Assembly (NCBI GenBank): GCA_902778375.1
Contig: CACYXJ010000013.1
Coordinates: forward strand, 1-44,225
Origin: an uncultured Erysipelotrichaceae bacterium
GTDB taxonomy: Bacteria; Bacillota_I; Bacilli_A; Erysipelotrichales; Erysipelotrichaceae
Length of the DNA stretch: 44,225 bases
Direction: 5' to 3'
The notes below the pieces were generated by a model. The model was not told where the DNA came from. It was given only the letters and a program-made list of their open reading frames with translations, and ran no database searches. How positions within the stretch are numbered: the stretch's first letter is position 1; each line of letters starts with the position of its first letter. The translations under genes were made by a program, and so were the position numbers. Shown piece by piece: positions 6,881 through 43,806 of this stretch.

Positions 6881-9087
6881 CGATTGTGAACGAAGAAAAT
6901 CTGATCCGTCTCAACGGGAAATTCACCTATATTCTTTTCAGAAATGAAGAGAATTTTTATACTGTCGCCAAGTTCCGCATCAATGATGAAAGAGAAAGAG
7001 TCATTACCGTGACCGGTCTTCTGCCGCAGGTGCAGACAGATCTGCTTTACAACATCACGGGAATCTATACCGAACATCCCCGCTACGGCATGCAGTTTCA
7101 GATTCAGTCCTTTGAGAAACCGCTGCCTTCGGAAAGGGAAGGAATCATCCGCTATCTGTCCGGCATCCAGTTTGCCGGCATCGGTAAGAAGACAGCGGAA
7201 AAGATCGTCGGTTCCCTTGGCGAGGAATGCCTGAATCTGATCCGGGCTGATGACAATGTCCTTTATACCGTTCCCGGACTCAGCGCGAAACAGATCGCCG
7301 CCATCAAGGAAGGCATGCTGCAGAGCGATGACGGGCTCGAGGAACTTGTCCGTTTTCTCAATGTCCATGGCATCGGCATGCGCAACCTGGTGCGCCTGAA
7401 CAAGGTCTACGGCAAGGAAGCGCTGAACAAACTGAAAGAAGATCCGTACCGGGTGATCCGGGAGTGCGAGGGATTCGGCTTTGCGACTGCCGACAAGATC
7501 GGAGCGTCGCTCGGCATTGCCCCCGATGATGAAAGACGTCTTTCCGCCATGCTGGTCGCCGCATGCAGCGATGCCTGCATGAGCAGCGGCAATTCCTATG
7601 TCCGTCTGGAATCCTTCGAAGATTATTTCCGCAGGATCAGCGACGGTGTCAGCTGCGATTTTGAAGCTCTGCTGAATGAAGCGGTATTCGACGGACAGCT
7701 GATCCGGGAGGAAAACCGCATCTATCCCAAAGCCCAGTATGACAGCGAGCATTTCATCGCTTCGTTTCTGACTTCATTTCCGTACCGTGAGACGGAAGAC
7801 ACGGATATGGAAAACGTGCATGCCTGTCTGGAGAAAATGCAGAAGGATACCGGCATCGTCTATGACGAAAAGCAGACGGAAGCGATCGAAACTCTGTTCC
7901 GGGAAGACTGCATGATCATTACCGGCGGTCCCGGCACCGGCAAGACAACGGTGATCCGGGCTCTGGTCCATCTGTTTGAGGAACTGTATCCCGATGCTTC
8001 GGTGATTCTCGCCGCCCCGACCGGAAGGGCAGCCAAACGGCTGAGCGAACTGACCCATACCAGCGCGTCGACGATCCATTCGATCCTGCAATGGGACCTG
8101 GAAACAAATACCTTCGGCAAGAACGAGGAAGATCCTTTAAGCGGCGATCTTCTGATCGTGGACGAGTTTTCCATGGTCGACGCTTATCTCTTCAGCAATC
8201 TGCTGCGGGCGTCCCATACCATCCGCAAGATCTGCATCATCGGTGATGAAGATCAGCTGCCAAGCGTAGGTCCCGGCTGTGTATTACGCGACATGATCGC
8301 GTCGAATATCTTCCCTCTGATCCGCCTTTCCCATATCTACCGGCAGGAAAACGGCAGCGGTGTCATTGCCCTTGCACATGACATCAACCGCGGCGCACTG
8401 CAGGAATCCTACTCCCAGGATGTCGGATTCTATGAATGCCGCCGCCATGAGATCAAAAACGGCATTGTCGAAATCGTACGAAACGCGCTGGAAAAGGGAT
8501 ATTCCCTGGATGATGTCCAGGTACTTTCCCCGATGTACAGCGGAGCCGCCGGCATCGATGTACTGAACAACGCCCTGCAGGAAGTGTTCAATCCTTCTGA
8601 CGGGATGAAGAAGGAACTGCGGATCGGCTATACGACATTCCGGGAAGGGGACAAGATCCTGCAGCTGAAAAACCAGCCGGACGATGAGGTTTTCAACGGT
8701 GACATCGGCACCCTTGCCGAGATCATCGAAGCCCGGGAGAGTCCCGACCGCAAGACGACGATCATCGTCGATTTCCAGGGTATCTTTGTCGAATACAACC
8801 AGGACAGCTGGAACAACATCTCGCTTGCCTACTGTATCAGCGTGCACAAGTCGCAGGGTTCGGAATATCCGATCGTGATTATGCCGTTTACCTACCAGAT
8901 GAATATCATGCTGCAAAGAAAACTGATCTATACCGGTGTCACGAGAGCCCGCAAGGCGATCCTTCTGCTGGGCGAACTTGGCGCCTTCCGGAAGGGAATC
9001 GCCATCATTGAAAGACACCCCCGGGAAACCACACTTTGCCGGCGGCTGACGGAATACAGCAGCCGTGAAGACCCCTTTGATTTCTGA
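6877..9087 (+). CDS. recD2: ATP-dependent DNA helicase RecD2
   Basis: 736-residue SF1B 5'-3' helicase, the form found in bacteria without RecBC, linked to replication-fork and mismatch-repair functions. Domains: N-terminal OB-like and helix-hairpin-helix region (about 1-220, with GIGKKTAEKIV and GIGMRNLVRL), then the helicase core from about 330. Seen: Walker A GGPGTGKTT at about 350-358, LIVDEFSMVD as motif II, GDEDQLPSVGPG as motif III, and CISVHKSQGSEYP followed by YTGVTRA near the C-terminus. Length is typical (about 740). It overlaps mnmA by ATGA and is followed by a strong terminator. It has no association with recBC here. Confidence 0.95.
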   Translation: MTIVNEENLIRLNGKFTYILFRNEENFYTVAKFRINDERERVITVTGLLPQVQTDLLYNITGIYTEHPRYGMQFQIQSFEKPLPSEREGIIRYLSGIQFAGIGKKTAEKIVGSLGEECLNLIRADDNVLYTVPGLSAKQIAAIKEGMLQSDDGLEELVRFLNVHGIGMRNLVRLNKVYGKEALNKLKEDPYRVIRECEGFGFATADKIGASLGIAPDDERRLSAMLVAACSDACMSSGNSYVRLESFEDYFRRISDGVSCDFEALLNEAVFDGQLIREENRIYPKAQYDSEHFIASFLTSFPYRETEDTDMENVHACLEKMQKDTGIVYDEKQTEAIETLFREDCMIITGGPGTGKTTVIRALVHLFEELYPDASVILAAPTGRAAKRLSELTHTSASTIHSILQWDLETNTFGKNEEDPLSGDLLIVDEFSMVDAYLFSNLLRASHTIRKICIIGDEDQLPSVGPGCVLRDMIASNIFPLIRLSHIYRQENGSGVIALAHDINRGALQESYSQDVGFYECRRHEIKNGIVEIVRNALEKGYSLDDVQVLSPMYSGAAGIDVLNNALQEVFNPSDGMKKELRIGYTTFREGDKILQLKNQPDDEVFNGDIGTLAEIIEARESPDRKTTIIVDFQGIFVEYNQDSWNNISLAYCISVHKSQGSEYPIVIMPFTYQMNIMLQRKLIYTGVTRARKAILLLGELGAFRKGIAIIERHPRETTLCRRLTEYSSREDPFDF

Positions 9088-13762: not shown

Positions 13763-13768
13763 AAACAG

Positions 13769-13987
13769 GAAATTGATGACGGAGAGTAAGTAGGCTGCGG
13801 ATGACGCTGAAGAGAGAAGACGGCCGGTGCGAGTCTTTGCCGAATTACAGCTGAAGCTTTCTCCAGCAGAGCGCTTAATCAGCGACGCAGACCGGCGTTA
13901 TGGTAAATTAAGGTGCACATTTTCATGTGAACCAGGATGGTACCGCGAGAAATCGTTCCTGGAGATGAAAATGTTTTTTTATTTGAT
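13769..13987 (+). promoter_or_regulatory. T-box riboswitch (tRNA-Ala) of alaS
   Basis: The T-box core GGATGGTACCGCGAGAA lies about 70 bases before the start codon. The arms ACATTTTCAT...CCAGGA and TCCTGG...ATGAAAATGT, followed by a run of T, make the competing terminator. Upstream, GAGAGTAAG marks the base of stem I, and GCT (13850-13852) followed by GAAGC...GAGC sits where the specifier is expected; GCU is an alanine codon, in agreement with the gene. The specifier position is inferred by comparison with the trpS leader. Confidence 0.92.
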
Positions 13988-13998
13988 AAGGAGGATTT

Positions 13999-16638
13999 AT
14001 GCCAAACAAACAGCTCAGCGGCAATCAGATCAGACAGATGTTCCTTGATTTCTGGAAGACAAAGGGATGCATGATTGAACCGGGCGCCAGCCTGATTCCG
14101 CATGATGACCCGACGCTTCTGTGGATCAATGCCGGCGTCTCAGCCCTCAAGAAGTATTTCGACGGAACCGAGAAACCGGCCTGCAACAGAATCGCCAACG
14201 CCCAGAAATCGATCCGTACAAACGATATTGAAAACGTCGGCAAGACAGCCCGCCACCATACATTCTTCGAAATGCTCGGCAACTTCTCGATCGGTGACTA
14301 TTTCAAGGAGGAAGCGATCACCTGGGCATGGGAATTCATGACCAGTCCGGAATGGATCGGCTTCGACAGGGAAAAACTGTATGTAACAGTTTATCCCGAT
14401 GACGAAGTTGCCAAGGAAACATGGATCAAGGTCGGTATGATCCCCGAACATATCCGCAAGACCGATGACAACTTCTGGGAGATCGGCCGCGGACCCGGCG
14501 GACCGGATACCGAACTGTTCTTTGACCGCGGAGAAAAGTATGATCCCGAGCATCTCGGCGAGAAGCTGTTCTTCGAGGATATCGAAAACGACCGCTATAT
14601 CGAAGTATGGAATATCGTCTTCTCGCAGTATGACTGCCGTCCCGGCGAAGTGCCGCGCAGCGAATACAAAGAACTGCCACAGAAGAATATCGATACCGGT
14701 ATGGGTCTCGAACGTCTGACCTGCCTGATCCAGGAAGGCGAGACGAACTTCGACACCGACCTGTTCCTGCCGGTTATCCGTGCCTGCGAAAAGATGGCAA
14801 AGCACAGCTATGACGAGCCGGAATACAAGATGGCTTACAGAGTCATTGCCGACCATATCAGAACCGTTACATTCGCCATTGCCGACGGGGCCATGTTCTC
14901 CAACGAAGGCAGAGGCTATGTATTGAGACGTGTACTGCGCAGAGCTGTCCGCTACGGCATCAAGCTCGGTATCAGCGGCGCCTTCATGTACCGTCTGGTC
15001 AAGATCGTCGCCGACAACATGGAAGACTACTATCCGTATCTGCAGGACAAGGTTTCCCTGATCGAACGTCTGGTCAAGACCGAGGAGGAATCCTTCCACA
15101 AGACACTGGCCAACGGCGAAAACCTGCTGAATGACGCCCTGAAGGCACATGAGGACACGAAAGTCCTGCCGGGCGAAGTGGTCTTCAAACTTTATGATAC
15201 CTACGGATTCCCGAAGGAACTGACAGTTGAGATCGCCGGCGATGCCGGTTACGAAGTCGATCTGGAAGGTTTCGACAAGGAAATGGCTGCCCAGAGAAAG
15301 CGCGCCAAGGAAGCCCGCGGCGACCAGCAGTCCATGCACGGACAGTCGGCTGATCTTATGGATTTCACGGAAGAATCCGTCTTTACCGGCTACAGTGAAA
15401 CCCATTGCGCCGGCAAGGTCATCGGCATGTTCCGCAACGGCGTCAAGGTAGACGAACTGGAAGATGAAGGCGATGTCATTCTTGACAGAACCTGCTTCTA
15501 TGCTGAAAGCGGCGGCCAGTGCGCCGATACCGGAAAACTCTGGAGCGATACGTTCCGCGCCGATGTCACGGATGTCAGAAAAGCACCGCACCAGCAGCCG
15601 ATGCACCATATTCAGAATGTCGAAGGAACACTGCACGTCGGTGATGTCCTGGAAGGCGAATATGACTTCGCAGCCAGACAGAAGACAAGAGCGAACCACT
15701 CTTCGCTGCATCTTCTCCAGGCGGCGCTGAAGCAGGTCCTCGGCGATCATGTCGCCCAGGCCGGTTCCTTCAACGGACCTGACTACGGACGTTTTGACTT
15801 TACCCATTATGAAAAGCCGACTGCGGAACAGCTGAAGGAAGTGGAACGCATCGTCAATGAGAAGATCGCTGCCGCCATTCCTGTCGTCACCGATGTCATG
15901 AGCATCGAAGACGCCAAGAAGACCGGTGCAGTCGCTCTGTTCAACGAGAAATACGGCGACACGGTCAGAGTTGTCTCGATGAGCGAATTCTCCAAGGAAT
16001 TCTGCGGCGGTACGCATGTCAGCAACACGGCCGAACTCGGATCGTTCAAGATCCTCTCGGAAGAATCCATCGGTTCCGGTATCCGCCGTATTACCAGCGT
16101 TACCAAGATGAAATCCTATGAGGAATTCAAGGCAGCTGAAGACTATCTCGAAGAAACTGCTGCGCTTCTGAAGATGAACTCTTCCGTCGGTCTCAAGGAG
16201 CGTCTCGAACAGCTGATCCTCGAAAATGCCTCCCTGAAGAAGGAAGTTGCCCTGCAGAATGAAAAGGCAATGGCAATGGAAGCCCAGGCGATGCAGAGCA
16301 AGGCTGAGACTTACGGAGACATCAGCGCTCTGATCCTGGAACTCAAGGACAAGGATTCCGGATCGCTCAAGGCCTATGCCGAAAAGCTGCGCAACGGCCT
16401 GAAGAACGGTTTCGTCTTCATTTCCAACGAAGGCTCCGGCAAGGTGACATTCGTCTGCGCGTCCTCCAAAGAGGCGATCGCGAAGGGTCTCAAGGCCGGC
16501 GATATCGTCAAGAAGGCAGCCCAGATCACCGGCGGCAACGGCGGCGGACGTCCCGACATGGCCCAGGCCGGCGGCCGCGACACGGCGAAGATCAATGAAG
16601 CTCTTGAGTCTGTCAGAGAGACTCTGAAACAGCTTTGA
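13999..16638 (+). CDS. alaS: Alanyl-tRNA synthetase
   Basis: 879-residue class II synthetase. Domains in order: aminoacylation core (about 1-240, including NAGVSALKKYFDG and GDYFKEEAI), tRNA-recognition region, editing domain (about 560-690) with the zinc-type HSSLH and CGGTH motifs that clear Ser- and Gly-tRNA-Ala, a coiled segment (about 720-770), and the C-terminal DHHA1 domain with GGNGGGRPDMAQAGG. Length is normal (870-880). AAGGAGG precedes the ATG. Expression should follow tRNA-Ala charging through the T-box leader. It heads the conserved Bacillota neighbourhood with ireB, ruvX and mltG but ends in its own terminator. Confidence 0.97.
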   Translation: MPNKQLSGNQIRQMFLDFWKTKGCMIEPGASLIPHDDPTLLWINAGVSALKKYFDGTEKPACNRIANAQKSIRTNDIENVGKTARHHTFFEMLGNFSIGDYFKEEAITWAWEFMTSPEWIGFDREKLYVTVYPDDEVAKETWIKVGMIPEHIRKTDDNFWEIGRGPGGPDTELFFDRGEKYDPEHLGEKLFFEDIENDRYIEVWNIVFSQYDCRPGEVPRSEYKELPQKNIDTGMGLERLTCLIQEGETNFDTDLFLPVIRACEKMAKHSYDEPEYKMAYRVIADHIRTVTFAIADGAMFSNEGRGYVLRRVLRRAVRYGIKLGISGAFMYRLVKIVADNMEDYYPYLQDKVSLIERLVKTEEESFHKTLANGENLLNDALKAHEDTKVLPGEVVFKLYDTYGFPKELTVEIAGDAGYEVDLEGFDKEMAAQRKRAKEARGDQQSMHGQSADLMDFTEESVFTGYSETHCAGKVIGMFRNGVKVDELEDEGDVILDRTCFYAESGGQCADTGKLWSDTFRADVTDVRKAPHQQPMHHIQNVEGTLHVGDVLEGEYDFAARQKTRANHSSLHLLQAALKQVLGDHVAQAGSFNGPDYGRFDFTHYEKPTAEQLKEVERIVNEKIAAAIPVVTDVMSIEDAKKTGAVALFNEKYGDTVRVVSMSEFSKEFCGGTHVSNTAELGSFKILSEESIGSGIRRITSVTKMKSYEEFKAAEDYLEETAALLKMNSSVGLKERLEQLILENASLKKEVALQNEKAMAMEAQAMQSKAETYGDISALILELKDKDSGSLKAYAEKLRNGLKNGFVFISNEGSGKVTFVCASSKEAIAKGLKAGDIVKKAAQITGGNGGGRPDMAQAGGRDTAKINEALESVRETLKQL

Positions 16639-31185: not shown

Positions 31186-34122
31186 ATGTTTTTAAAGCGC
31201 ATAGAAATGCAGGGATTCAAATCCTTCGCAGATCGAACGATCATATCATTTGAGCATCCGGTCACCGGTGTCGTAGGACCCAACGGATGCGGCAAATCGA
31301 ATATAGCAGACGCCGTCAGATGGGTTCTGGGCGAACAGAGCGCCAAAAGCATGCGCGGCGAGAAGATGAACGATGTCATCTTTGCCGGCAGTGAAGACCG
31401 CCGTAAAGTCAATATGGCGGAAGTCACACTGGTATTTGACAACAGCAGCCATGTCCTCAACGACGAGCGGGATGAACTGGAAGTCACCCGCCGTCTTTAC
31501 CGTGATTCCGGCGATGCTGAATACCTGATCAACCGCAGCAACGTCCGTCTGCGCGATGTCGTGGAACTGTTTCTGGATACCGGTCTCGGCCGGGATTCCC
31601 TAAGCATCATTTCCCAGGGAAATGTCGTTTCCTTCGCGGAAGCCAAGCCGCATGAAAGAAGAGGAATCTTCGAGGAAGCCGCGGGTGTCGCCAAATACAA
31701 GAAGAGAAAGCTCGAATCGCTTTCCAAACTGGAACGAACAGCCGCCAATCTCGAACGTTCCCAGGACATCCTTGCGGAGCTCGAGAAACAGGTATCGCCC
31801 CTGAAACGGCAGGCTCATAAGGCGGAAATCTACCGGGAAAAGAAAAAACGCCTGGAAGAGATCGAAATCAGTGTCCTTGTCCAGGACATCGAGCAGATCC
31901 AGAGCGAGATCGAAAGTGCCCGCAAGACGCTGTTCGATATCGAAACAAACACGACAATGTACAACACGAACATCCAGATCAGCGAAACCAGGATCCAGGA
32001 AAACCGCCGTACCGTGCATAAACTGGATCAGGAAATCAATACTCTTCAGGATGAACTGATGCGCAACTTCACGGAAGTACAGGCACTAGAAGCCCGCCGT
32101 ACCGAACTGGACGAGCGCCGCAAATATATCGTCGAAACCGGCACCAGCGAAGAAAGGGCAAAGGAACTCAGAGACCTTCTCGACAGTGCCAGGATCGAAT
32201 ACGAAGACCGTAAGGAACGTCTCGACACCCTGAACAGGGAAATCAAGCTTTTTTCGGAAAAGCTGAATCTCGCCGCCCAGGAAATCGTCGACAAGTCATC
32301 CGATCTTGAACAGTCCTCGGCCCGTCTGAGAGGTCTTGAGAACCGCAAGAATGTTCTCGACCAGCTGATGCGCAATCCTTTCAACAACCAGGCCGGTATC
32401 CGTTCCATCATGGACAGCCGCCATGCCCTCAACGGCATCCTCGGTGTAGTCGGCCAGGTGATGGAAGTTGAGAAGGGATATGAAGATGCCATTTCCACCG
32501 CTCTTGGCGGAGCGATGAACAATATCGTCACATCCGACGAACAGGCGGCAAGAGACGCGATCCGCTTCCTGAAGCGGAATCTCAGCGGCCGCGCGACTTT
32601 CCTGCCGATCAATGTCTGCCAGCCCCGCTATGTCAGCCGCGAGAACATGATCGTCTGCGAGAATACGAAAGGCTTTCTCGGTGTCGCTTCCGACTTCGTC
32701 ACGAATGATCCGAAGTTCGATCCGGTTGTCGAGAGCCTGCTGCAGAATGTGCTCGTTGTCGAGAACATGGAAGCCGGCAACGAACTTTCCGCTCTGACCA
32801 GGCGTACCTACAAGATCGTCACCCTCGATGGTGAAGTCATTCACCGCGGAGGTTCCATGACCGGCGGCAAGACCAGACATGATACCAATATCGTGACCAT
32901 GAAAAAGGAAGCGGAGGAACTCGCTGTTTCCCTGGATGCCGAAAAGGCCAGATACGAACTGGCAAAGAAAGCATATGACAGGGCCAGCGGCGCTAGGGAA
33001 GACGCTGCCAGAAACCTGCAGGAAAAGAGGTTTGCGGCAGCAGCCCTGGAACCGATCGTCGATGCCAAGCAGGCAAAATACGAAAAGCTGCAGAATGACT
33101 ATTCACTGCTGCAGCCGCAGGAGGGAATGGAAGAAGCGGATTCCCATGTCGACGAACTGGTCGTCAGACTGAATAACGCATACCTGCGCCGTGATGAAAT
33201 CACCAACGATATCAAAGGCAAGCGCGACCTCAGGATGCAGACCAACCAGGAAGCCGAACGCAGGGAAGCCCAGCTGCGGCAGATCCGAAAGGAACTGCAG
33301 ACAGCCGAAGCGGCAGCCAATGCCATCCGTGTTGACCAGGGACGTCTGGAAACTAAGATGGAAAACAACCTGCAGAGACTTGCTTCGGAATATCAGCTGA
33401 CTTACGAATTCGCCCGTACCAGGGCATCCGAAACACCGGTGGAAAATGCCCGTGAGGAAGTTGCCCAGCTGCGTTCTGATATCGAGCGTCTCGGCAATAT
33501 CAACATGAACGCGCCGGAAGAATACAACGAAGTCAACGAACGTTACGAGAAACTGAAACAGCAGATCGAGGAACTGACACTCAGCCGCGACAAGATCCTG
33601 GCTGCCATCGATGAGATGGATACCGTCATGAAGCGGCAGTTCAAGGAAATGTTCGACAAGATCAACAAGGAATTCAACGAAATCTTCCGCAGTCTCTATG
33701 GCGGCGGCAAGGCAAGACTTGTTCTGCTCGATCCCGATGACCTTCTGAATACCGGCATCGACATCGATGCCCAGCCTCCGGGCAAGGCAGTCCAGAACAA
33801 CATGCTGTTCTCCGGCGGCGAGAAGTCGCTGATCGCGCTTTGTGTCCTGTTTGCGATACTGAAGGTCAAACCGGTTCCGCTCGTCATTCTTGACGAGGTG
33901 GAAGCTGCGCTTGACCCGGGCAACGTCGAACGTTTTGCCCAGTATCTGCACAACTATACCGACCGCACCCAGTTCATCGTTGTCACCCATCGTCCTGGTA
34001 CGATGGAAAACGCCGATGTTCTCTATGGTGTCACAATGCAGCATCAGGGTGTATCCCAGATGCTGAAAGTACAGCTGCGTGAAGCCATCAACATGGCTGA
34101 ACCGGCACTGGAGGCCGCATGA
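31186..34122 (+). CDS. smc: Chromosome segregation protein Smc (short form)
   Basis: 978 residues, against about 1,180 in Bacillus. ATPase that loops and segregates DNA with ScpA and ScpB. Seen: FLKRIEMQGFKSFADRT, Walker A GPNGCGKSN (about 31-39), the N-terminal coiled coil (about 165-395), hinge (about 400-560, ending GGSMTGG), returning coil (about 560-770), then INMNAPEEYNEV, signature FSGGEKSLIALCVLF (from about 876) and Walker B VILDEVEAALD. Head and hinge are complete; the missing length falls in the coiled-coil arms. Start 31186 is preceded by AAGGAG; the in-frame ATG at 31165 is too far upstream. It overlaps ftsY by ATGA. Confidence 0.95.
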   Translation: MFLKRIEMQGFKSFADRTIISFEHPVTGVVGPNGCGKSNIADAVRWVLGEQSAKSMRGEKMNDVIFAGSEDRRKVNMAEVTLVFDNSSHVLNDERDELEVTRRLYRDSGDAEYLINRSNVRLRDVVELFLDTGLGRDSLSIISQGNVVSFAEAKPHERRGIFEEAAGVAKYKKRKLESLSKLERTAANLERSQDILAELEKQVSPLKRQAHKAEIYREKKKRLEEIEISVLVQDIEQIQSEIESARKTLFDIETNTTMYNTNIQISETRIQENRRTVHKLDQEINTLQDELMRNFTEVQALEARRTELDERRKYIVETGTSEERAKELRDLLDSARIEYEDRKERLDTLNREIKLFSEKLNLAAQEIVDKSSDLEQSSARLRGLENRKNVLDQLMRNPFNNQAGIRSIMDSRHALNGILGVVGQVMEVEKGYEDAISTALGGAMNNIVTSDEQAARDAIRFLKRNLSGRATFLPINVCQPRYVSRENMIVCENTKGFLGVASDFVTNDPKFDPVVESLLQNVLVVENMEAGNELSALTRRTYKIVTLDGEVIHRGGSMTGGKTRHDTNIVTMKKEAEELAVSLDAEKARYELAKKAYDRASGAREDAARNLQEKRFAAAALEPIVDAKQAKYEKLQNDYSLLQPQEGMEEADSHVDELVVRLNNAYLRRDEITNDIKGKRDLRMQTNQEAERREAQLRQIRKELQTAEAAANAIRVDQGRLETKMENNLQRLASEYQLTYEFARTRASETPVENAREEVAQLRSDIERLGNINMNAPEEYNEVNERYEKLKQQIEELTLSRDKILAAIDEMDTVMKRQFKEMFDKINKEFNEIFRSLYGGGKARLVLLDPDDLLNTGIDIDAQPPGKAVQNNMLFSGGEKSLIALCVLFAILKVKPVPLVILDEVEAALDPGNVERFAQYLHNYTDRTQFIVVTHRPGTMENADVLYGVTMQHQGVSQMLKVQLREAINMAEPALEAA

Positions 34123-35090
34123 GTTTTCTGAGCAAGTTAAAGGATATCTTCAATAAGAAAGAAGACAAGGCTGTCTATCTGAGCGGCTTCAAGAAGTCCA
34201 AGCAGACATTCGGCGACCAGCTTTCGCAGATGCAGTATGAATTCAAGGGAGTCGATGATGACTTCCTCGAACAGCTGACGATCATCCTGCTGGAAAGCGA
34301 TGTCGGCATTACGACAGCCGACCTGATCTGTGAAAAGCTGAAAGCAAAGTGTGAAGACTATCCGTCGATCACATTCCATTGGGCCATGAACTTCCTGATG
34401 GAAATCATGAAGGAAGTATATGAGGAATATCCCGACGAACCGATCCGCTATAATGAAGAGGGGACGACTGTCATTCTTCTGGAAGGGGTCAACGGCAGCG
34501 GCAAGACCACGACAGCCGCGAAACTGGCGAAGATGTACATGGACCAGGGGAAGAGCGTTGCCTTTGTCGCGGCGGATACATTCCGTGCCGGTGCCATCGA
34601 ACAGCTGGCCAAATGGGGTGAACGTCTCGGTGTTCCCTGCATCAAGGGCAGGGAGAACGGAGATCCCAGCGCCGCCATCGTCGACGGCTGCCGCTATGCC
34701 AAAGAGAACAATATCGATATTCTTCTCTGCGACACGGCCGGAAGACTGCAGAACAAGACAAATCTGATGAACGAACTGGCCAAGATGAACCGTGTCAGTG
34801 CCCGTGAGATCGATGGGGCGCCGCACAACACCTGGCTTGTCCTGGATGCCACGACCGGCCAGAACGGTCTGTCCCAGGCGGAAGTATTCGCCGAAGCGAC
34901 GACACTTTCCGGCATCATCCTGACCAAGATGGATGGCACAGCCAAGGGCGGTATCGTTCTTGCCATCAAGAACAAGCTGCATCTGCCGGTGTACTTCATT
35001 GGTCTTGGCGAACAGCCGGAAGATCTCAGACCATTCGATCTTGACGGCTATCTGTACAGTATTTCGGAAGGTCTGGATACCAATGAATAA
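34119..35090 (+). CDS. ftsY: Signal recognition particle receptor FtsY
   Basis: 323 residues. GTPase that docks ribosome-SRP complexes at the membrane. N domain (about 20-110), then the G domain with G1 GVNGSGKTTTAAKLA (about 123-137), DTFRAGAIEQL, DTAGRLQNKTNLMNEL and TKMDGTAKGG. The acidic A domain of E. coli is absent, as usual in Bacillota. Overlaps smc by ATGA, the classical smc-ftsY pair, and its last eight bases overlap ylxM. Confidence 0.96.
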   Translation: MSFLSKLKDIFNKKEDKAVYLSGFKKSKQTFGDQLSQMQYEFKGVDDDFLEQLTIILLESDVGITTADLICEKLKAKCEDYPSITFHWAMNFLMEIMKEVYEEYPDEPIRYNEEGTTVILLEGVNGSGKTTTAAKLAKMYMDQGKSVAFVAADTFRAGAIEQLAKWGERLGVPCIKGRENGDPSAAIVDGCRYAKENNIDILLCDTAGRLQNKTNLMNELAKMNRVSAREIDGAPHNTWLVLDATTGQNGLSQAEVFAEATTLSGIILTKMDGTAKGGIVLAIKNKLHLPVYFIGLGEQPEDLRPFDLDGYLYSISEGLDTNE

Positions 35091-35397
35091 ACTTGAAGCC
35101 AACAGTCTTCTCGATTTCTACGGCGTGCTTCTGACCGAAAAACAGCAGCAGATCACGGAATACTACTTCCGCGAAGACTACTCGCTGCAGGAGATCGCCG
35201 AGATCACGAATGTCTCGCGCAGTGCCGTGCATGACACGATCAGACGCTGCGAAAAGGAACTGCAGGCATATGAAGACAAGCTGCATCTGTATGCTTCCTG
35301 GCGGAAGCGCATGAAGTTATATGAACAAATCAGAGCCAGATCGGATGCCGAAACCGGCAGGCTGCTGGATCTGTGTATCGATACCGAAAACGATTAG
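35083..35397 (+). CDS. ylxM: YlxM/p13-like HTH protein (SRP-associated)
   Basis: 104 residues. Sigma-70 region 4-like helix-turn-helix: LTEKQQQITEYYFREDYSLQEIAEITNVSRSAVHDTIRR at about 18-58. In several Bacillota YlxM accompanies ffh and modulates SRP. Here it follows ftsY with an 8-base overlap, and ffh is not in the window. Although the frame is open from 34933, the ATG at 35083 gives the family start MNKLEANSLLDFYG and has GGAAGG upstream. Confidence 0.88.
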   Translation: MNKLEANSLLDFYGVLLTEKQQQITEYYFREDYSLQEIAEITNVSRSAVHDTIRRCEKELQAYEDKLHLYASWRKRMKLYEQIRARSDAETGRLLDLCIDTEND

Positions 35398-35413
35398 GAG
35401 GAAAAATACAATC

Positions 35414-36610
35414 ATGAGTAAGGTAATTGCTGTTAATTCCGGTTCATCGTCACTTAAATTCACACTGTATGACATGCCCAGTGAGAACATTCTCTGCAGC
35501 GGCCAGGCAGAACGTATCGGTCTTGATATGGGAATCTTCACCATCAAGTACAACGGCGAAAAGAAAGTGGACAATCTGCCGATTCCCAACCACAAGGTCG
35601 CAGTCGACATCCTGCTGAAGGACCTGACAGAACTCGGCATTGTCAAGGATCTTGATGAAATCAAGGGTGCCGGTCACCGTATCGTCCAGGGCGGCGCATA
35701 CTTCTCTGAATCCGTAAAGGTTGATGATGACGCTGTTGCCAAGGTCGACGAACTGTGCGAACTCGCTCCGCTTCACAACCATGCCCATCTGGTATGCTAC
35801 CGGGCATTCAAGGAAGCGCTGCCGAAGATCGGTCACGTATTTGTATTCGATACAGCATTCCATCAGACAATGGGACCGGAATCCTATCTGTTCCCGGTAC
35901 CGTATGACTGGTATACACAGTACAAGATCAGAAGATACGGCGCACATGGCACCAGCCACTGGTATGTCAACAGACGTGCTGCGGAACTGATGGGCAAAAA
36001 CGTCGAAGATCTGAACATGATCACCTGCCATCTTGGCAATGGCGCATCCATTTCCGCAATCAAGGGCGGCAAGGTCATCAACACTTCGATGGGTCTGACA
36101 CCGCTCGGCGGCATCATGATGGGAACCCGTTCCGGTGATATCGACCCGACAGTCGTCTTCTATATGATGAAGAAACTGCAGTGCACACCGGATGAGATGG
36201 ATACATTCCTGAACAAGCGTTCCGGCATGCTCGGTGTTTCCGGCATCTCTTCCGATGCCCGTGACATCCAGGCGGCAGTCGACAAGGGTGACGAAAGAGC
36301 GATCCTGACAACCAACCTGTACACCAACCGTGTCATCAACGTTGTCGGCGGCTACTACATGCAGCTTGGCCATGTCGATGCGATCGTATTCACAGCCGGT
36401 CTCGGCGAGAACGACGCAATGACCCGTGAGCGCATCCTGAAGCATATGGAAGAAGCAATGGGTCTGAGCATCGACTATGATCTCAACAAAACGATCCGCG
36501 GCAAGGAATGCAGGATCTCCAGGGATGACTCCAGCATTGCTGTCTATGTCATTCCGACCAACGAAGAAATCGTCATTGCCCGCGATACAGTGAGACTTCT
36601 GGGGTTATAA
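35414..36610 (+). CDS. ackA: Acetate kinase
   Basis: 398 residues. Converts acetyl phosphate and ADP to acetate and ATP, the ATP-yielding end of mixed-acid fermentation. Seen: VIAVNSGSSSLKFTLYD at the N-terminus, GHRIVQGG, HGTSHWYV, HLGNGASI, GLTPLGGIMMGTRSGDIDP and FTAGLGENDAMTRE. Length is normal. AGGAGG overlaps the ylxM stop. Its TAA overlaps the nrnA ATG by one base. No pta is adjacent. Confidence 0.97.
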   Translation: MSKVIAVNSGSSSLKFTLYDMPSENILCSGQAERIGLDMGIFTIKYNGEKKVDNLPIPNHKVAVDILLKDLTELGIVKDLDEIKGAGHRIVQGGAYFSESVKVDDDAVAKVDELCELAPLHNHAHLVCYRAFKEALPKIGHVFVFDTAFHQTMGPESYLFPVPYDWYTQYKIRRYGAHGTSHWYVNRRAAELMGKNVEDLNMITCHLGNGASISAIKGGKVINTSMGLTPLGGIMMGTRSGDIDPTVVFYMMKKLQCTPDEMDTFLNKRSGMLGVSGISSDARDIQAAVDKGDERAILTTNLYTNRVINVVGGYYMQLGHVDAIVFTAGLGENDAMTRERILKHMEEAMGLSIDYDLNKTIRGKECRISRDDSSIAVYVIPTNEEIVIARDTVRLLGL

Positions 36611-37554
36611 TGGACTACACTCAGCTGTATGACGCAATCGCCGCGGCTGAAATCATCACGATCTTCCGTCATCAGAGACCGGACTGCGACGCACTCGGAT
36701 CACAGTTCGGACTGAAGAAATGGATCCGTGACAACTTTCCGGAAAAGAAAGTATACGCGCTCGGATTCGAACAGGCGACACAGGGAAAATTCCCGGCGCC
36801 TGACTGGACCGAGGACAGAGAAGTCAGGGACAGTCTGGCAATTGTCCTCGACACCGCCAACCTGGAAAGGGCGGATGATCAGAGGCTGCAGACCGCCAGT
36901 TATATGATTCGTATCGATCATCATCCGAAAACCCAGGATTTCGGCGATCTGCTTCTGATCAATGACAAGGCGGCAGCGACCTGCGAGATCCTGGCGAACT
37001 TCTTTGCTTCGACGAACAGTATCGTTTCTTCGGAAACGGCTGAATACCTGTATATGGGTCTTCTGACCGATACCCTGTGCTTCAAGACCAGCAACACGAC
37101 GGCAGATACGCTCAAAGCTGCAGCCTATCTTGCCGGCTTCAGCATCGATATTCCGGTGATCAACCGGCTTCTGTTCGATCATCCGTATTCATGGTTTTCC
37201 TTTGACGGATGTCTGCATCAGATTGTCGAAGTCAGAGGCGGAAAAATGGCCTGCGCCATCGTCACTGACGATATCCTGAAGAAGTATCATCTGTCAGGAG
37301 GGGAGGCAAGAAACCATGTCGATCTGTTCAGTGACGTGATCGAATTTGAAATATGGGCAATGTTTACAGAACGAATCGAAAACGGAGTATCCTGTTATGA
37401 CGGATCCGTACGTTCCAAAAAGATTGTCATCAATGATATCGTGCAGTCATACGGAGGCGGCGGTCACAAAAACGCTGCCGGTGTCAAAGATCTGAGTGAA
37501 GCGCAGATGCATGAGCTGATCGACCGTTTGTTTGCAAGGATTCCATCTGAATGA
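36610..37554 (+). CDS. nrnA: DHH/DHHA1 phosphoesterase NrnA-like (oligoribonuclease/pAp phosphatase)
   Basis: 314 residues. Degrades short RNA and DNA oligomers (including pGpG and pApA in relatives) and removes phosphate from pAp. Seen: the first metal motif RPDCDALGSQ (about 20-29), VLDTANLERAD, the DHH motif IDHHPK (about 104-109), and in the DHHA1 part GGGGHKNAAG near the C-terminus. Length is normal (about 310-320). It overlaps ackA by one base and is followed by a terminator, ending the smc operon. Confidence 0.92.
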   Translation: MDYTQLYDAIAAAEIITIFRHQRPDCDALGSQFGLKKWIRDNFPEKKVYALGFEQATQGKFPAPDWTEDREVRDSLAIVLDTANLERADDQRLQTASYMIRIDHHPKTQDFGDLLLINDKAAATCEILANFFASTNSIVSSETAEYLYMGLLTDTLCFKTSNTTADTLKAAAYLAGFSIDIPVINRLLFDHPYSWFSFDGCLHQIVEVRGGKMACAIVTDDILKKYHLSGGEARNHVDLFSDVIEFEIWAMFTERIENGVSCYDGSVRSKKIVINDIVQSYGGGGHKNAAGVKDLSEAQMHELIDRLFARIPSE

Positions 37555-37556
37555 GA

Positions 37557-37590
37557 TGAAAAGCAGTCATATCAATATGGCTGCTTTTTG
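37557..37590 (+). terminator. Terminator after nrnA
   Basis: AAAAGCAGTCATAT and ATATGGCTGCTTTTT form a stem of about 13 bp with one G-U pair and a short loop, then T residues. Confidence 0.85.
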
Positions 37591-37592
37591 AG

Positions 37593-37598
37593 TATAAT
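37593..37598 (+). promoter_or_regulatory. -10 box before the MscS-like gene
   Basis: Consensus TATAAT; the -35 window (37570-37575, TATCAA) lies in the preceding terminator and matches poorly. GAGGGG (37611-37616) precedes the GTG start. Confidence 0.45.
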
Positions 37599-37622
37599 AC
37601 TTGTAATGGCGAGGGGATTACT

Positions 37623-40523
37623 GTGGAAAAATACAGGAAAAAATTGATTGTCAGTATTGTTTTGCTGCTGTTTGTGATCACCGGCTGCAGTGTTATTGGT
37701 TTTGGCTTGCATTCGATGTTTACGATTTACGATGAAATAGATACTGAAACCACTGATCTTTTCAAAAGTATTGAAACAACCTGCGACACACTGGCAGAGA
37801 ACAGTTATCTGTCGATGGATAGTTTTACGGAACGGATTCTTAAAAATGCGGAAGTTTCAGCATATTTTGCCGGATTTCTTGAAGCAGGGGAAGAGGAAGG
37901 TGATGATATTACCGGACCTTTCCAGAAAGGTGATATTATCCTGCTGGAAAACGGGAATCTGATCACAAACGGAAGTCTTCCTTTCTATACGGACGGATTT
38001 GCTGATTCCCTCAATAAAAACAAAGGAACATTCGAAACCTACTTCCTGAACGAAGATGGAGAAGAAGAACTGGCCTTTGTTTCCTTTGTGCTTATCCGGG
38101 ATAACTATTACTACTGTGAAATGCATTCCTATGATGAATACTTGATGTATGTTGAGACACATAAAAACATACAGGAATCATTCAGTAACCTGGAACAGAT
38201 CTATGATACCCGCATGATCGTCGCATTCAACGGGGAAGACGACGACCCCATTGACGAGTATTATACCATTTACTATCAGACGCCCTCCCTGATACAGGAT
38301 TCCTACATAATGGAATGCGAGACCATCAAGGACCTGAAAGCTCTGGATCAGTACGCATCGGAAAACGGTATTATTTCAATGCATGAATTTGATAACGGAA
38401 GAATGTTCGCTCTGGTGGAACTGCCGCTGAAAAACAATGTTTTCGACCTGATTCAGAAATACAGCATTCAATACGGTATCATCATCATGCTTGCAACTGT
38501 GTTTATCGTCTGGGTCATTGCTGTATATCGCTTTGTCTTTGATCATAAACTGACCGACATGCAGAAGGAACAGTATAATCCGAAGCGTGTCCGCAGATCC
38601 GCACGGGTAATCGTCATTGTATGTACATTATGCGTGTTCCTGATTTCAATGTTTATTCATGCTGCCATATCACTGCAAAGGGCCGGCGAGTCGAGCGCAA
38701 GGGCACTGGAACTTCTTAAGTATCAGAATTCGGTTTCCGAAATCAACGCGGATAATACCAACCGTTCCAACAATCTGTTCTATACTGATCTGACATACAG
38801 ACTGGAAAACTTCTTCGCTGAACATCCTGACAGGCTGACACATGATGTACTGGACAGATGTGCCTATTATTCCGATCTTGAATTCATCACATATTACGAC
38901 AGCAGCGGCAATGAAATCAGTTCAAGCAACGATCTTGTCAACCTGTCACTGAGCAATAACGGCGATAACACAACAGCTGTCTTCAAACCGATTCTGAACG
39001 GTGTGGATTCAGTGTATGCCGGGAATGTCAAAGAACCATATTATGCGAATGAACAGGATATTTACGGTTCCAGGACAACACTTGCAGACGGCCGGTATGG
39101 TGTGATCTTGTTCGGTCTTACGGACCAGGATTATCCCCTGGATCAGGAAGATGAGACAAATAAGATGTTACAGGCAATGACTCCCTCTGAATCTCTGACA
39201 TTCCAGGTCGATAAAGAACTGAAGTGTGTATTCCATTCCAGCGATCCCGATCTTCAGTATACTGATACCGAAGCTCTGAACATAAAACTTGATAAGATTG
39301 TCGAAGGAAACGGAAATTTCTACAAGATCAACAACATCAACTATTACGGTCTGGCAAGTGTTGATGAGCATAGCATCTGGTTCTATTTGACAAAATCTTC
39401 CTTTATCTTCAAAAAAATCATCAATGAAGGACTGAACGGCGCAATCCTGTGTCTGATCTCACTTGTGATTCTGTATATTTATCTTCTCCATGGTTATAAC
39501 GATGAGGAATTTGCGAGACATTGCAATACAGGAGATCTGATCGTACGCCGTAACGATCTGTCATACAGCCAGGAACTGCTGACAAGCGATGCAAAGAACG
39601 AAGCCAGGACAATGATGTACACACCGCTGAAGTGGAATGAAAGGATGCCTGATCAGAAAGCGAAGTTTGTATTCCAGTTATTCTCCATTATTCTTCTTCT
39701 GATTATCGGATTCATCGTTGCAAGAAGCAGCAGTCAGGGCGGCAATATCTTCAATTTCCTGATTTACGGAAACTGGACACGCGGATTCAACATGTTTGCT
39801 TATTCCAGCATCGTGATCATGGGACTGCTCGTATTTGCCGGCATATCTGGTATCAAGATGATAATCAGCATGCTGATGAATCTGATGAGTATCCGCACAG
39901 CCACGATTGCCCGTCTGATGATGCATTTCCTGCGCTATGTCGCCATCACTGTCTTCATCTACTACACCGCAGAGTATCTGGGATTGAATCCCGGTACCGT
40001 ACTGGCATCAGCCAGTCTGATCGCCTTTACCGTATCGCTTGGCTCCAAAGACATCGTCACTGACATGGTTGCCGGAATCATGCTGGTATTTGAAAGAGAT
40101 TTCCAGGTCGGTGACATTATCGAAGTCGGAAACTATCGCGGCACAGTATTGGAAATCGGTGTCAGAACCACAAAACTGATCGGTGAAGGCAATAATATCA
40201 AGAGCATTCCGAACAAGGATATCAAGAATGTCATCAACCGTACGACAATGAATTCCTGGTATATCATGACCGTGAGCATTCCGTCTTCCTGTGATCTTGC
40301 AGAAATTGAAAAAATGTTCGCTGAGGAACTGCCGAAGATCGGCTCCAGGATTCCGGAAATCATCAACGATCCTATATATAAAGGTGTTACAAACATTCAG
40401 GGAGGCAAGATGACGATAACGATCATTGCCGAATATAACGAAAAAGATTTCCATGAGGTTCAGAGAAAACTGAATGAAGAAATCATCAATGTCCTCCATG
40501 AACATGATATTCCCATCAGCTGA
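37623..40523 (+). CDS. MscS-family mechanosensitive channel with large extracytoplasmic domains
   Basis: 966 residues, against 286 for E. coli MscS. GTG start with GAGGGG upstream. Membrane helix at about 8-30, a large extracytoplasmic region (about 35-280), two helices (about 283-306 and 319-342), a second extracytoplasmic region (about 350-600), a helix at about 605-625, then helices near 680-700, 725-755 and 770-790 leading into the MscS pore helix (ASASLIAFTVSLGSKDIVTDMVAGIMLVFE) and the beta domain (FQVGDIIEVGNYRGTVLEIGVRTTKL). The two outer regions look like Cache/PAS-type sensor folds by pattern, which is only a guess. Single gene with its own terminator. Confidence 0.88.
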   Translation: MEKYRKKLIVSIVLLLFVITGCSVIGFGLHSMFTIYDEIDTETTDLFKSIETTCDTLAENSYLSMDSFTERILKNAEVSAYFAGFLEAGEEEGDDITGPFQKGDIILLENGNLITNGSLPFYTDGFADSLNKNKGTFETYFLNEDGEEELAFVSFVLIRDNYYYCEMHSYDEYLMYVETHKNIQESFSNLEQIYDTRMIVAFNGEDDDPIDEYYTIYYQTPSLIQDSYIMECETIKDLKALDQYASENGIISMHEFDNGRMFALVELPLKNNVFDLIQKYSIQYGIIIMLATVFIVWVIAVYRFVFDHKLTDMQKEQYNPKRVRRSARVIVIVCTLCVFLISMFIHAAISLQRAGESSARALELLKYQNSVSEINADNTNRSNNLFYTDLTYRLENFFAEHPDRLTHDVLDRCAYYSDLEFITYYDSSGNEISSSNDLVNLSLSNNGDNTTAVFKPILNGVDSVYAGNVKEPYYANEQDIYGSRTTLADGRYGVILFGLTDQDYPLDQEDETNKMLQAMTPSESLTFQVDKELKCVFHSSDPDLQYTDTEALNIKLDKIVEGNGNFYKINNINYYGLASVDEHSIWFYLTKSSFIFKKIINEGLNGAILCLISLVILYIYLLHGYNDEEFARHCNTGDLIVRRNDLSYSQELLTSDAKNEARTMMYTPLKWNERMPDQKAKFVFQLFSIILLLIIGFIVARSSSQGGNIFNFLIYGNWTRGFNMFAYSSIVIMGLLVFAGISGIKMIISMLMNLMSIRTATIARLMMHFLRYVAITVFIYYTAEYLGLNPGTVLASASLIAFTVSLGSKDIVTDMVAGIMLVFERDFQVGDIIEVGNYRGTVLEIGVRTTKLIGEGNNIKSIPNKDIKNVINRTTMNSWYIMTVSIPSSCDLAEIEKMFAEELPKIGSRIPEIINDPIYKGVTNIQGGKMTITIIAEYNEKDFHEVQRKLNEEIINVLHEHDIPIS

Positions 40524-40551
40524 TATTGATGCATAACATTCGTCATACTTG

Positions 40552-40602
40552 AAAAGCCCATGGATCCACACCGGACAGCAGTGTGAATCCAAGGCTTTTT
40601 TG
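40552..40602 (+). terminator. Terminator after the MscS-like gene
   Basis: AAAAGCC...TGGATCCACAC pairs with GTGTGAATCCA...GGCTTTTT, a long stem with two interruptions, followed by T residues. Confidence 0.88.
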
Positions 40603-40648
40603 TTACCTGAAATCTGATTCTATTATTTTCCTGGCAGGAAAGGGGAAT

Positions 40649-40684
40649 AAAAAAAGATCCTCCTGAATAAATTCAGGAAGATCT
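40649..40684 (-). terminator. Terminator of the lipocalin-like lipoprotein gene
   Basis: Minus strand: AGATCTTCCTGAA, TTTA, TTCAGGAGGATCT, then seven T (40656-40650). One mismatch in a stem of about 13 bp. Confidence 0.85.
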
Positions 40685-40696
40685 CCGGTTAACAGA

Positions 40697-41071
40697 TTAC
40701 TGTTTTTCGAAGAAGAGCTTGACTGTGATAACCTCTCCAACAAGCTGGCCGTCTGTATCCGTAAATGTCATGTTGACATCGCCGGTAGTTTTAACACCGT
40801 CTTCCAGTTCGACCCATGTGAAAGTGTTATTGGTGCCTTCAGGATCATCAAATGTACCTGTGCCGTCGCCTTTGAGTTCGAGAAAAACTTCCTTGCCTTC
40901 GAATACTTCTTCAGCAGAGACTTTCTGACCGAACGCTTCAGCACTGACAGCTTTCCAGGTGCCGATGTACTTGCTGTTGGCTACATCTTTGTTCTCCTTT
41001 TTGCAGCCGACAAGAACGAAGCATGTCATGACCAGCATGAAGCTGCAGAGAACAGACATAAATTTTTTCAT
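40697..41071 (-). CDS. Small lipocalin-like lipoprotein
   Basis: 124 residues. Signal MKKFMSVLCSFMLVMTCFVLVGC with lipobox VLVGC (residues 19-23). The mature part begins KKENKDVANSKYIGTWKAVS; the GTWK opening and the beta-rich, acidic body (VFLELKGDGTGTFDD, NTFTWVELEDGVKTTG) resemble lipocalin-like or copper-resistance-type beta-barrel domains of unknown ligand. A TTG upstream in frame at 41086 overlaps the ribosome site GGAGGG, so the ATG at 41071 is chosen. It has its own promoter and terminator and so stands alone, at the left border of the AT-rich end region. Confidence 0.8.
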   Translation of the reverse strand: MKKFMSVLCSFMLVMTCFVLVGCKKENKDVANSKYIGTWKAVSAEAFGQKVSAEEVFEGKEVFLELKGDGTGTFDDPEGTNNTFTWVELEDGVKTTGDVNMTFTDTDGQLVGEVITVKLFFEKQ

Positions 41072-41109
41072 GTTATTTCCCTCCAATGCAGTTGAAAACT
41101 GCCTATTTC

Positions 41110-41138
41110 AATATATCAAATCATTGTGCAAATGTCAG
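41110..41138 (-). promoter_or_regulatory. Promoter of the lipocalin-like lipoprotein
   Basis: Minus strand: -35 CTGACA (41138-41133), 17-base spacer, -10 TATATT (41115-41110). It lies about 30 bases beyond the stop of the double-glycine peptide gene, so the lipoprotein does not depend on that gene's transcript. Confidence 0.65.
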
Positions 41139-41168
41139 TATGCAGACAGAATAAAGGTTTTTCTATTT

Positions 41169-41621
41169 TTACCAGGAACGTGAAACATATACATCAAAAC
41201 CTGAGGCGTAAAGACCGCAGGTGCGGCATGCATACATTGAATGAATGTCATTACGCGGATCTTTTTTTGCAATATAAAATGTATGAGCTCCGCATCTGGG
41301 ACAGGCACAGCCAAGCGGATAATGATCATAGTCGACATTTACGGCAAAGCATCCGCCGTCAGTTCCCCAGCAATGGCTGTCGGGTTCGACGGTTGCTGCA
41401 CATCCTGCCGTTGCATAGTCGCGTTCTGTGGTGGCACCACCGCTGACAGAAGAGAGTTCATCCATGGAGAGACTTTTGTATTCAGAACTGGCTTTGACAA
41501 CTTCCTTTATGAATTCAGATCTCTCTTCGCTGATTTCATATCCGTTTTGTATAAGAATCTGTTGTATTTCTTCTGCTGTTTCAGCATTCATTAACTGCTG
41601 AATAAGATCGTCTTTTTCCAT
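41169..41621 (-). CDS. Double-glycine leader peptide with C-terminal zinc-ribbon-like domain
   Basis: 150 residues. Residues 1-62 look like a Nif11/bacteriocin-type leader: an acidic helical part (MEKDDLIQQLMNAETAEEIQ, NGYEISEER) ending in SMDELSSVSGG, the double-glycine site used by exporting peptidase transporters. The remaining 88 residues hold eight cysteines: single Cys in AGCAAT, SHCWG and GGCFA, then CACPRCGAHTFYI and, 21 residues after the CPRC pair, ACRTCGLYASG, a CxxC-x21-CxxC zinc-ribbon-like arrangement. The ATG at 41621 follows AGGAG by eight bases; a TATAAT (41651-41646, minus strand) lies upstream. No exporter or modification enzyme is in the window. It could be a secreted peptide precursor or a protein using the leader for another purpose. 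Function unknown. Confidence 0.75.
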   Translation of the reverse strand: MEKDDLIQQLMNAETAEEIQQILIQNGYEISEERSEFIKEVVKASSEYKSLSMDELSSVSGGATTERDYATAGCAATVEPDSHCWGTDGGCFAVNVDYDHYPLGCACPRCGAHTFYIAKKDPRNDIHSMYACRTCGLYASGFDVYVSRSW

Positions 41622-41645
41622 ATATAAATCTCCTGATTGCATTTA

Positions 41646-41651
41646 ATTATA
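41646..41651 (-). promoter_or_regulatory. -10 box of the double-glycine peptide gene
   Basis: TATAAT on the minus strand, about 25 bases before the start codon at 41621. The -35 is not clear; an imperfect inverted repeat lies just upstream. Confidence 0.5.
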
Positions 41652-41661
41652 TAATAAAGTT

Positions 41662-41723
41662 CATAGTATTATTACTATTCATTTCCTGAATGGATTGTCA
41701 TGAATAATAAGTATTAGTCTATG
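41662..41723. repeat. Imperfect long inverted repeat between divergent genes
   Basis: Left arm 41662-41682 (CATAGTATTATTACTATTCAT) and right arm 41700-41723 begin and end as reverse complements (ATGAATA...CTATG) with small gaps inside. It sits between the double-glycine peptide gene (minus) and the esterase gene (plus). It may be an operator or the trace of an insertion. Confidence 0.4.
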
Positions 41724-43542: not shown

Positions 43543-43635
43543 ATGAGTGATAACAAAAAAGTCATTGATAATGAAGTGCTGAAAAGCGTAGCAGGCGGTC
43601 AGACCGAAGAAGAGTATTATGCGGAACTGGCATAA
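43543..43635 (+). CDS. Short peptide with double-glycine leader
   Basis: 30 codons from ATG 43543 to TAA 43633. MSDNKKVIDNEVLKSVAGG is a typical bacteriocin/pheromone-type leader (acidic, LKSVAGG at the end) followed by QTEEEYYAELA. GGAG lies nine bases before the ATG; in-frame ATGs at 43498, 43510 and 43537 are alternatives that would lengthen the leader. If translated and exported alone, the mature product would be an acidic 11-residue peptide. If the TAA is a recent mutation, this is the first part of an 86-residue protein continuing to 43806. Both readings are possible; see the next entry. Confidence 0.5.
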   Translation: MSDNKKVIDNEVLKSVAGGQTEEEYYAELA

Positions 43636-43806
43636 TTCGGCCTTCTTGACACCGAAGAACATCTTCTGAATGGTAAAAAATGTGGAGACTGCAACATGGG
43701 CAAACTCAGTTTCTTAAGATATCAGCCAGGTCCATTCGGCAATAAGGAAGCGGTTTATTACTGTGACCTCTGCCATGAATACACCGTCACCGGCCTTCGC
43801 AAATAA
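43636..43806 (+). pseudogene. In-frame zinc-ribbon-like segment after the stop codon
   Basis: Directly in frame after the TAA at 43633, 56 codons stay open to the next stop (43804-43806): FGLLDTEEHLLNGKKCGDCN, then KLSFLRYQPGPFGNKEAV and YYCDLCHEYTVTGLRK. The CGDC and CDLC pairs are 23 residues apart, and the end (Y-x-C-x-x-C-x-x-Y-x-x-T-G) matches that of the 150-residue protein at 41169 (YACRTCGLYASG). There is no ribosome site before it, so it is best seen as the core domain of the preceding leader, cut off by one nonsense codon. Confidence 0.5.

Follow-up and report, generated by a model that had tools for sequence, protein, structure and literature searches.

The cargo expected behind a double-glycine leader is usually a small peptide, and the question raised by the locus described here is what such a leader is doing in front of a cysteine-rich core of 88 residues that ends like a zinc ribbon. 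The arrangement is found in one gene of the window (the whole stretch of 44,225 nucleotides that was analysed), called here the precursor gene, with the following features:

41172..41621, minus strand: precursor coding sequence, 150 amino acids, with its stop codon at 41169-41171 (open reading frame call, family of copies, dN/dS)
41630..41634, minus strand: AGGAG ribosome-binding site, read from the sequence, 8 nt before the ATG at 41621
41436..41621, minus strand: acidic Nif11-like leader of 62 residues, ending in GG (weak TIGR03798 and PF07862 matches, TIGR01847, predicted helices)
41436..41471, minus strand: putative C39-peptidase recognition segment LSMDELSSVSGG, predicted cut after 41436 (residue positions as in LahT150)
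41349..41423, minus strand: putative radical SAM site RDYATAGCAATVEPDSHCWGTDGGC, residues 67-91, with C74-x4-E79, C84-x3-D88 and C91 (conservation, linkage in relatives)
41217..41303, minus strand: zinc-ribbon-like segment CPRC-x21-CRTC, residues 107-135 (profile matches of RPB9/TFIIS type, predicted beta hairpins)

An alternative open reading frame of 157 amino acids opens at an upstream ATG (41642), and it is less likely because the AGGAG sequence precedes the ATG at 41621. Coding on the plus strand at these coordinates was rejected, as stops break the frame, and so were the remaining plus-strand reading frames, which are without support from relatives. Re-reading of the sequence bore out the description that the sequence-only reading gave without naming a strand: the 62-residue acidic leader (net charge -9) precedes an 88-residue core with eight cysteines, at positions 74, 84, 91, 105, 107, 110, 132, and 135, the last four of which form the CxxC-x21-CxxC pattern. 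A similar pattern (CxxC-x15-25-CxxC) appeared in 352 of 20,000 shuffled cores, i.e., composition alone yields it about 2% of the time, so that the significance of the cysteine pattern rests on its conservation.

The precursor open reading frame is a real gene of a real family. A genome search for further genes with the same C-terminal domain found six more full-length paralogues, 38-45% identical to the precursor, which makes seven full-length copies in all, in addition to one truncated paralogue. These next-best relatives (E 2e-30 to 3e-20) match over both leader and core, and they are dispersed in the genome, on different contigs or far apart. A scan of named genomes gave 27 loci in metagenome-assembled genomes (MAGs) of Solobacterium/Erysipelotrichaceae, Clostridia, and Coriobacteriaceae, most of them of ruminant-gut origin and many carrying such a sample label. 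No relative was found in the viral contigs searched, and the plasmid and phage records searched gave no match. The closest relative is an orthologue (L029) in the Solobacterium sp. MAG RGIG2362, with dN/dS of about 0.2; its locus is syntenic with the window across 33206-41689, which counters the movement of the precursor gene between loci that was also considered. The dS value for this pair is 0.15 as compared with 0.45-1.4 for the flanking genes, suggesting a recent exchange between species. The patch concerned, at about 41000-41600 of the window, is approximately 95% identical to RGIG2362 within a syntenic block of far higher synonymous divergence, and recent interspecies recombination is a possible origin for it. 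Such an exchange is what would be expected of a competition or signalling factor, although it is only suggestive of one.

In the leader the residues L-12, E-8, L-7, V-4, G-2, and G-1 are all found, at positions identical to those studied for LahT150; the hydrophobic groove of the LahT C39 protease holds V-4, L-7, and L-12 (PMC6363468). These recognition residues are conserved among 29 aligned relatives, where G61 is present in 93% and G62 in 97%, and L-12, E-8, L-7, V-4, and GG are conserved across three bacterial classes. In two family members, L033 and L047, a short leader replaces the long one. The scores fit the Nif11 leader families to which the sequence-only reading had pointed, without supporting formal membership: TIGR03798 scores 18.9 bits (E 0.0013) with a curated cut-off of 32.3, and PF07862 scores 17.8 bits (E 0.004) with a cut-off of 23.8. 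As both are below the curated values, the leader is named Nif11-like and not a member of TIGR03798. A TIGR03798 match at E <= 0.01 is present in 9/29 relatives, the best at 6.3e-5, and TIGR01847, with a cut-off of 15.7 bits, gives 13.5 bits in the protein scan and 15.7, flagged as above cut-off, at 41436-41480 in the genome search. The profile of the own-genome family matches the solved Nif11 protein 9zn4 (E 0.0019), a match that is absent with the larger alignment. Helices are predicted for the leader, with pLDDT of about 90 over residues 1-40, and nothing reliable is modelled at the GG region (residues 61-64, pLDDT <50). One trait of the TIGR03798 family is nevertheless found, namely a GG cleavage motif that ends the leader in paralogous proteins with divergent cores, and the same type of leader precedes unrelated cores in the own genome and in the clusters of relatives. 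With weak leader matches and GG kept in nearly all relatives, the reading of the gene as a double-glycine leader joined to a zinc-ribbon-like domain is supported.

The precursor is one among many proteins with GG leaders in its genome, a good share of which carry ribbons, some of these without the cysteine/acid motif of the precursor core; the tallies come from targeted stretches and are lower bounds. One such gene lies in the window itself, together with a candidate partner gene downstream of the precursor:

43543..43806, plus strand: second GG-leader/zinc-ribbon gene, with one in-frame TAA (uninterrupted homologue in L104, minus strand)
40697..41086, minus strand: small lipoprotein gene, possible partner (open reading frame call; not conserved beside other copies)

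Other GG-leader families were noted as well. In the same clusters as relatives of the precursor there are GG-leader cargoes with C2H2-like zinc-finger cores (L046:1480-1818, L046:2276-2533, and L032:2170-2421), the first of which scores above the PF07862 Nif11 cut-off. A ribbonless GG-leader family with a HEEIMAMLR-like ending occurs on contigs C90, C1, C14, and C35 of G000 (L055, L062, L063, L066, and L069), and there is also a KWxFETLT family.

Between the GG and the ribbon lies the best-conserved stretch of the protein in the 29 relatives, GCAATVExxSxC-x3-D-(GG)C, with a mean entropy of 0.83 over residues 67-91 versus 2.61 over the ribbon segment, residues 106-136. C74, E79, C84, D88, C91, C107, C110, C132, and C135 are among the positions invariant in the 29 aligned members, the invariance of the motif being partly ascertained, because the two DNA patterns that seeded the named-genome scan fall inside it. 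The own-genome paralogues were found by plain similarity, unseeded, and the motif is present in them too. Seven of the eight cysteines are invariant, C105 being peculiar to the precursor and its orthologue. The Cys-x3-Asp/Glu spacing is found in all 29 relatives; an adjacent radical SAM gene is a property of the family, not of the precursor copy. The divergent paralogue on C7 has the motif in the form CKSNDAC. The own genome (C11, C40, and C7:5540) also has shorter GG proteins that carry the motif and lack the ribbon, and ribbonless motif proteins adjoin a radical SAM gene in L076, L078, and L082. Residues 84-93 have pLDDT <50 in the structure model, which offers nothing reliable there. The sequence-only reading had taken the core for a metal ribbon; the ribbon part of this claim holds, while a core consisting of the ribbon only does not fit, since the most conserved part is the cysteine/acid motif.

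The ribbon segment is variable in the 29 relatives save for its four cysteines, one glycine, and a few further positions, both CxxC knuckles (C107 and C110, C132 and C135) being invariant. Profile matches of the family include RPB9, TFIIS, and Lar-type ribbons, and the model predicts beta strands and hairpins akin to those of TFIIS and RPB9 with pLDDT of about 80. In Foldseek 1tfi and 1qyp are matched with probabilities of 0.8-0.9 and poor E-values of 0.2-1 (1tfi: probability 0.89, E 0.46); the VIA Z for the ribbon, only about 4, adds no certainty. Taken together, the profiles and the model suggest that the C-terminal part of the core likely has a ribbon fold, and the protein is likely to bind zinc. 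Weak matches to Elf1, VdcD, IsdH, and EF-hand models were rejected as reflecting shared CxxC or helix composition.

Clustering of neighbouring reading frames revealed that a single protein family adjoins precursors in 11 loci. It is composed of radical SAM/SPASM proteins, referred to here as the maturase, with PF04055 (Radical_SAM) and PF13186 (SPASM) both above cut-off, invariant C108, C112, and C115 in the CX3CX2C signature, and more invariant cysteines in the SPASM part. Only distant matches are found in NCBIfam, so that the family has no named model; TIGR04103 gives about 60 bits with a cut-off of 725, which places the maturase outside that family. Sequence profiles match SkfB, SuiB, and PqqE, and the model of the L035 protein (mean pLDDT 90) has whole-length Foldseek matches to SuiB, SkfB, CteB, and PqqE. 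SuiB carries an N-terminal RiPP recognition element; a Pfam scan of the maturase matched no such element, and the whole-model Foldseek aligns SuiB. The own genome encodes three maturases: that on C7 (L025:8545-9948) begins 23 bp after a ribbon-type paralogue, that on C11 follows a short motif precursor, and that on C18 (L075:3064-4536, minus strand) has no recognised precursor nearby. Linkage is observed in relatives and in one ribbon-type paralogue; no maturase adjoins the precursor at its own locus. In a tree of 42 maturases those on C7 and C18 fall in the clade whose neighbours are ribbon-type precursors, while members of other branches adjoin GG precursors with different Cys/Asp-rich cores, which makes the assignment of substrates indirect. 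Among the 23 relative-bearing genomes the maturase is present in 18, and the five without one at E <= 1e-40 are all drafts.

A search for C39-peptidase exporters, which the sequence-only reading associates with such leaders, found two of the NHLM type in the own genome, on C4 and C25, both unlinked to the precursor gene. The C4 exporter scores 924.1 bits with TIGR03796 (cut-off 853.3) and 718.5 with TIGR03797 (cut-off 709.4); that on C25 is a divergent second TIGR03796/TIGR03797 pair. All 23 relative-bearing genomes have a TIGR03796 match, 20 of them above cut-off. In several clusters of relatives the precursor adjoins the NHLM (C39 peptidase) exporter, and in several genomes exporter and maturase lie on the same contig within a few kb (for instance G072:C179, G075:C5, and G076:C2). 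Precursor, maturase, and exporter co-occur beyond chance across genomes. In a set of 60 related genomes motif precursors are present in 9, the maturase in 8, and the exporter in 12; the motif is accompanied by the maturase in 7/9 genomes (hypergeometric P 7e-7) and by the exporter in 8/9 (P 2e-6), and the maturase by the exporter in 8/8 (P 2e-7), all uncorrected for shared ancestry. Within the genus the values, likewise uncorrected, are about 3e-5 for motif and maturase and about 2e-5 for maturase and exporter.

The explanation that we prefer, and consider probable, is that the gene encodes an orphan precursor of RiPP type, without a biosynthetic cluster of its own. A radical SAM/SPASM maturase whose gene lies elsewhere in the genome, on C7 or C18, would recognise its Nif11-like leader and act on GCAATVExxSxC-x3-D-GGC. 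Modification of this copy by such an enzyme is rather probable. The specific products would most plausibly be Cys-to-Asp/Glu thioethers (C84-D88, perhaps C74-E79), a tentative suggestion made because the motif spacing resembles the sites of PapB, which in freyrasin (PapA) joins the Cys of CX3D to its Asp and also tolerates Glu (PMC9413430), and of QhpD, with Cys-Asp and Cys-Glu links within one protein (PMC11002830); C84-x3-D88 fits the PapB spacing and C74-x4-E79 is one residue longer. The unlinked NHLM-type ABC exporter would then cut after VSGG through its C39 domain and export the 88-residue core, and GG-dependent export is very likely. The CxxC/CxxC part would fold around zinc, and the result would be a small extracellular protein, cross-linked in its N-terminal loop and holding metal in its ribbon, used probably in interbacterial competition or signalling.

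Each component has known counterparts: precursors of the Nif11/NHLM kind have been described before, and so, independently, have radical SAM thioethers and promiscuous maturases that work in trans. Nif11-derived (N11P/TIGR03798) peptides with NHLM exporters (Haft 2010, PMC2887384) are alike in the acidic Nif11-like leader with GG, in large and partly unlinked paralogous sets, and in the HlyD/ABC1/ABC2 exporter encoded in the genome; they differ in that the precursor leader is below the curated cut-off, its 88-residue core has a zinc-ribbon end, and its partner belongs to the radical SAM/SPASM enzymes, in place of LanM or a cyclodehydratase. As regards the prochlorosins (ProcA/ProcM), PMC10783134 describes many diverse Nif11-leader precursors served in trans by one or a few promiscuous enzymes; the likeness would lie in enzymes acting in trans, whereas the chemistry and enzyme class are other, the core is larger, and it includes a domain of metal-binding type. 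The ranthipeptides share a radical SAM/SPASM enzyme and a Cys-x3-Asp motif with the precursor family, but the precursor has one Cx3D, not six, the maturase is a separate family, and the cross-link is here a prediction. In TIGR04103 (nif11-class peptide radical SAM maturase 3), too, a radical SAM maturase works with leaders of the Nif11 type. Ribbons of the TFIIS/RPB9/Lar type share the two CxxC knuckles, the short beta hairpins, and weak profile and fold matches; unlike them, the precursor ribbon stands behind an export leader and bears no sign of a role in transcription or restriction. A GG leader followed by a conserved modification motif and a zinc ribbon, and accompanied by an unnamed radical SAM family, was not found in the libraries and literature searched; no paper in that search joined Nif11, leader peptide, and zinc ribbon, or Nif11 and Erysipelotrichaceae, which is weak evidence.

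The sequence-only reading had also proposed leader-directed export cargo, and the precursor is indeed one of many GG-leader cargoes. An exported, unmodified zinc-ribbon protein, in which the cysteine/acid motif would bind another metal or form a disulfide, would agree with the absence of a linked maturase at this copy, with the zinc-finger-like cores of GG cargoes in relatives' clusters, and with the motif-less GG-leader ribbons in the own genome and in the window, which indicate that ribbons occur as GG cargo without the motif. It is nonetheless unlikely, because the most conserved part of the protein, far better conserved than the ribbon, is a motif tied to the maturase by neighbourhood and co-occurrence: it tracks the presence of the maturase and, in L076, L078, and L082, adjoins it without any ribbon. 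Likeness to RPB9, TFIIS, and Lar-type ribbons could also suit a cytoplasmic regulator or nucleic-acid-binding protein, the GG at the end of its acidic N-terminus being fortuitous. This is very improbable given recognition residues retained over three bacterial classes, co-occurrence with a C39 exporter, and the same leader type on unrelated cores.

Compatible with modified and unmodified products alike is a bacteriocin, the mature core killing related bacteria and the downstream lipoprotein protecting the producer. The leader and exporter are of the bacteriocin type, the low dS relative to the RGIG2362 orthologue suggests recent interspecies exchange, and no terminator-like site separates the precursor gene from the lipoprotein gene downstream, such a site being located after the latter, at 40686-40653. 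The lipoprotein gene has, however, a promoter-like site of its own at 41138-41110 and no Pfam family above cut-off, and no immunity gene was recognised by Pfam on the lipoprotein or among the neighbours of the copies, beside which none is conserved; moreover, the many unlinked paralogues per genome recall the prochlorosins, whose role is not known. A bacteriocin is therefore regarded as rather doubtful.

If the preferred reading, an orphan precursor modified in trans, is extended to the whole family, its members could be exported hybrids of a radical-SAM cross-linked loop (Cys-Asp, Cys-Glu) and a folded zinc ribbon, a combinatorial metalloprotein-RiPP repertoire of gut bacteria in which a single NHLM exporter and one or two maturases would handle, in trans, the many dispersed precursors of a genome; this is a speculative idea, possible but less likely than not. 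A family with leader, Cys/acid motif, and zinc ribbon would widen both the cargo of such exporters and the substrates of radical SAM maturases, and precursor and maturase constitute a testable pair without a named NCBIfam model. Bacillota and Coriobacteriia of the rumen and intestine have several types of GG cargo that lie below the cut-offs of current leader models, and the family is one of them.

Some minor observations concern the radical SAM clusters. In L053 (about 7869-8360) an apparent fusion remnant combines in one frame the start of an NHLM ABC2 protein, the motif and ribbon, and the SPASM end of the maturase. A 347-residue protein without a Pfam family (L046:4528-5571) recurs in these clusters in six loci, and a sigma-70-like factor (L046:837-1379) in five. 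Elsewhere in the window an ordinary T-box leader (13767-13963, plus strand) lies upstream of an alanyl-tRNA synthetase-like open reading frame at 13999.
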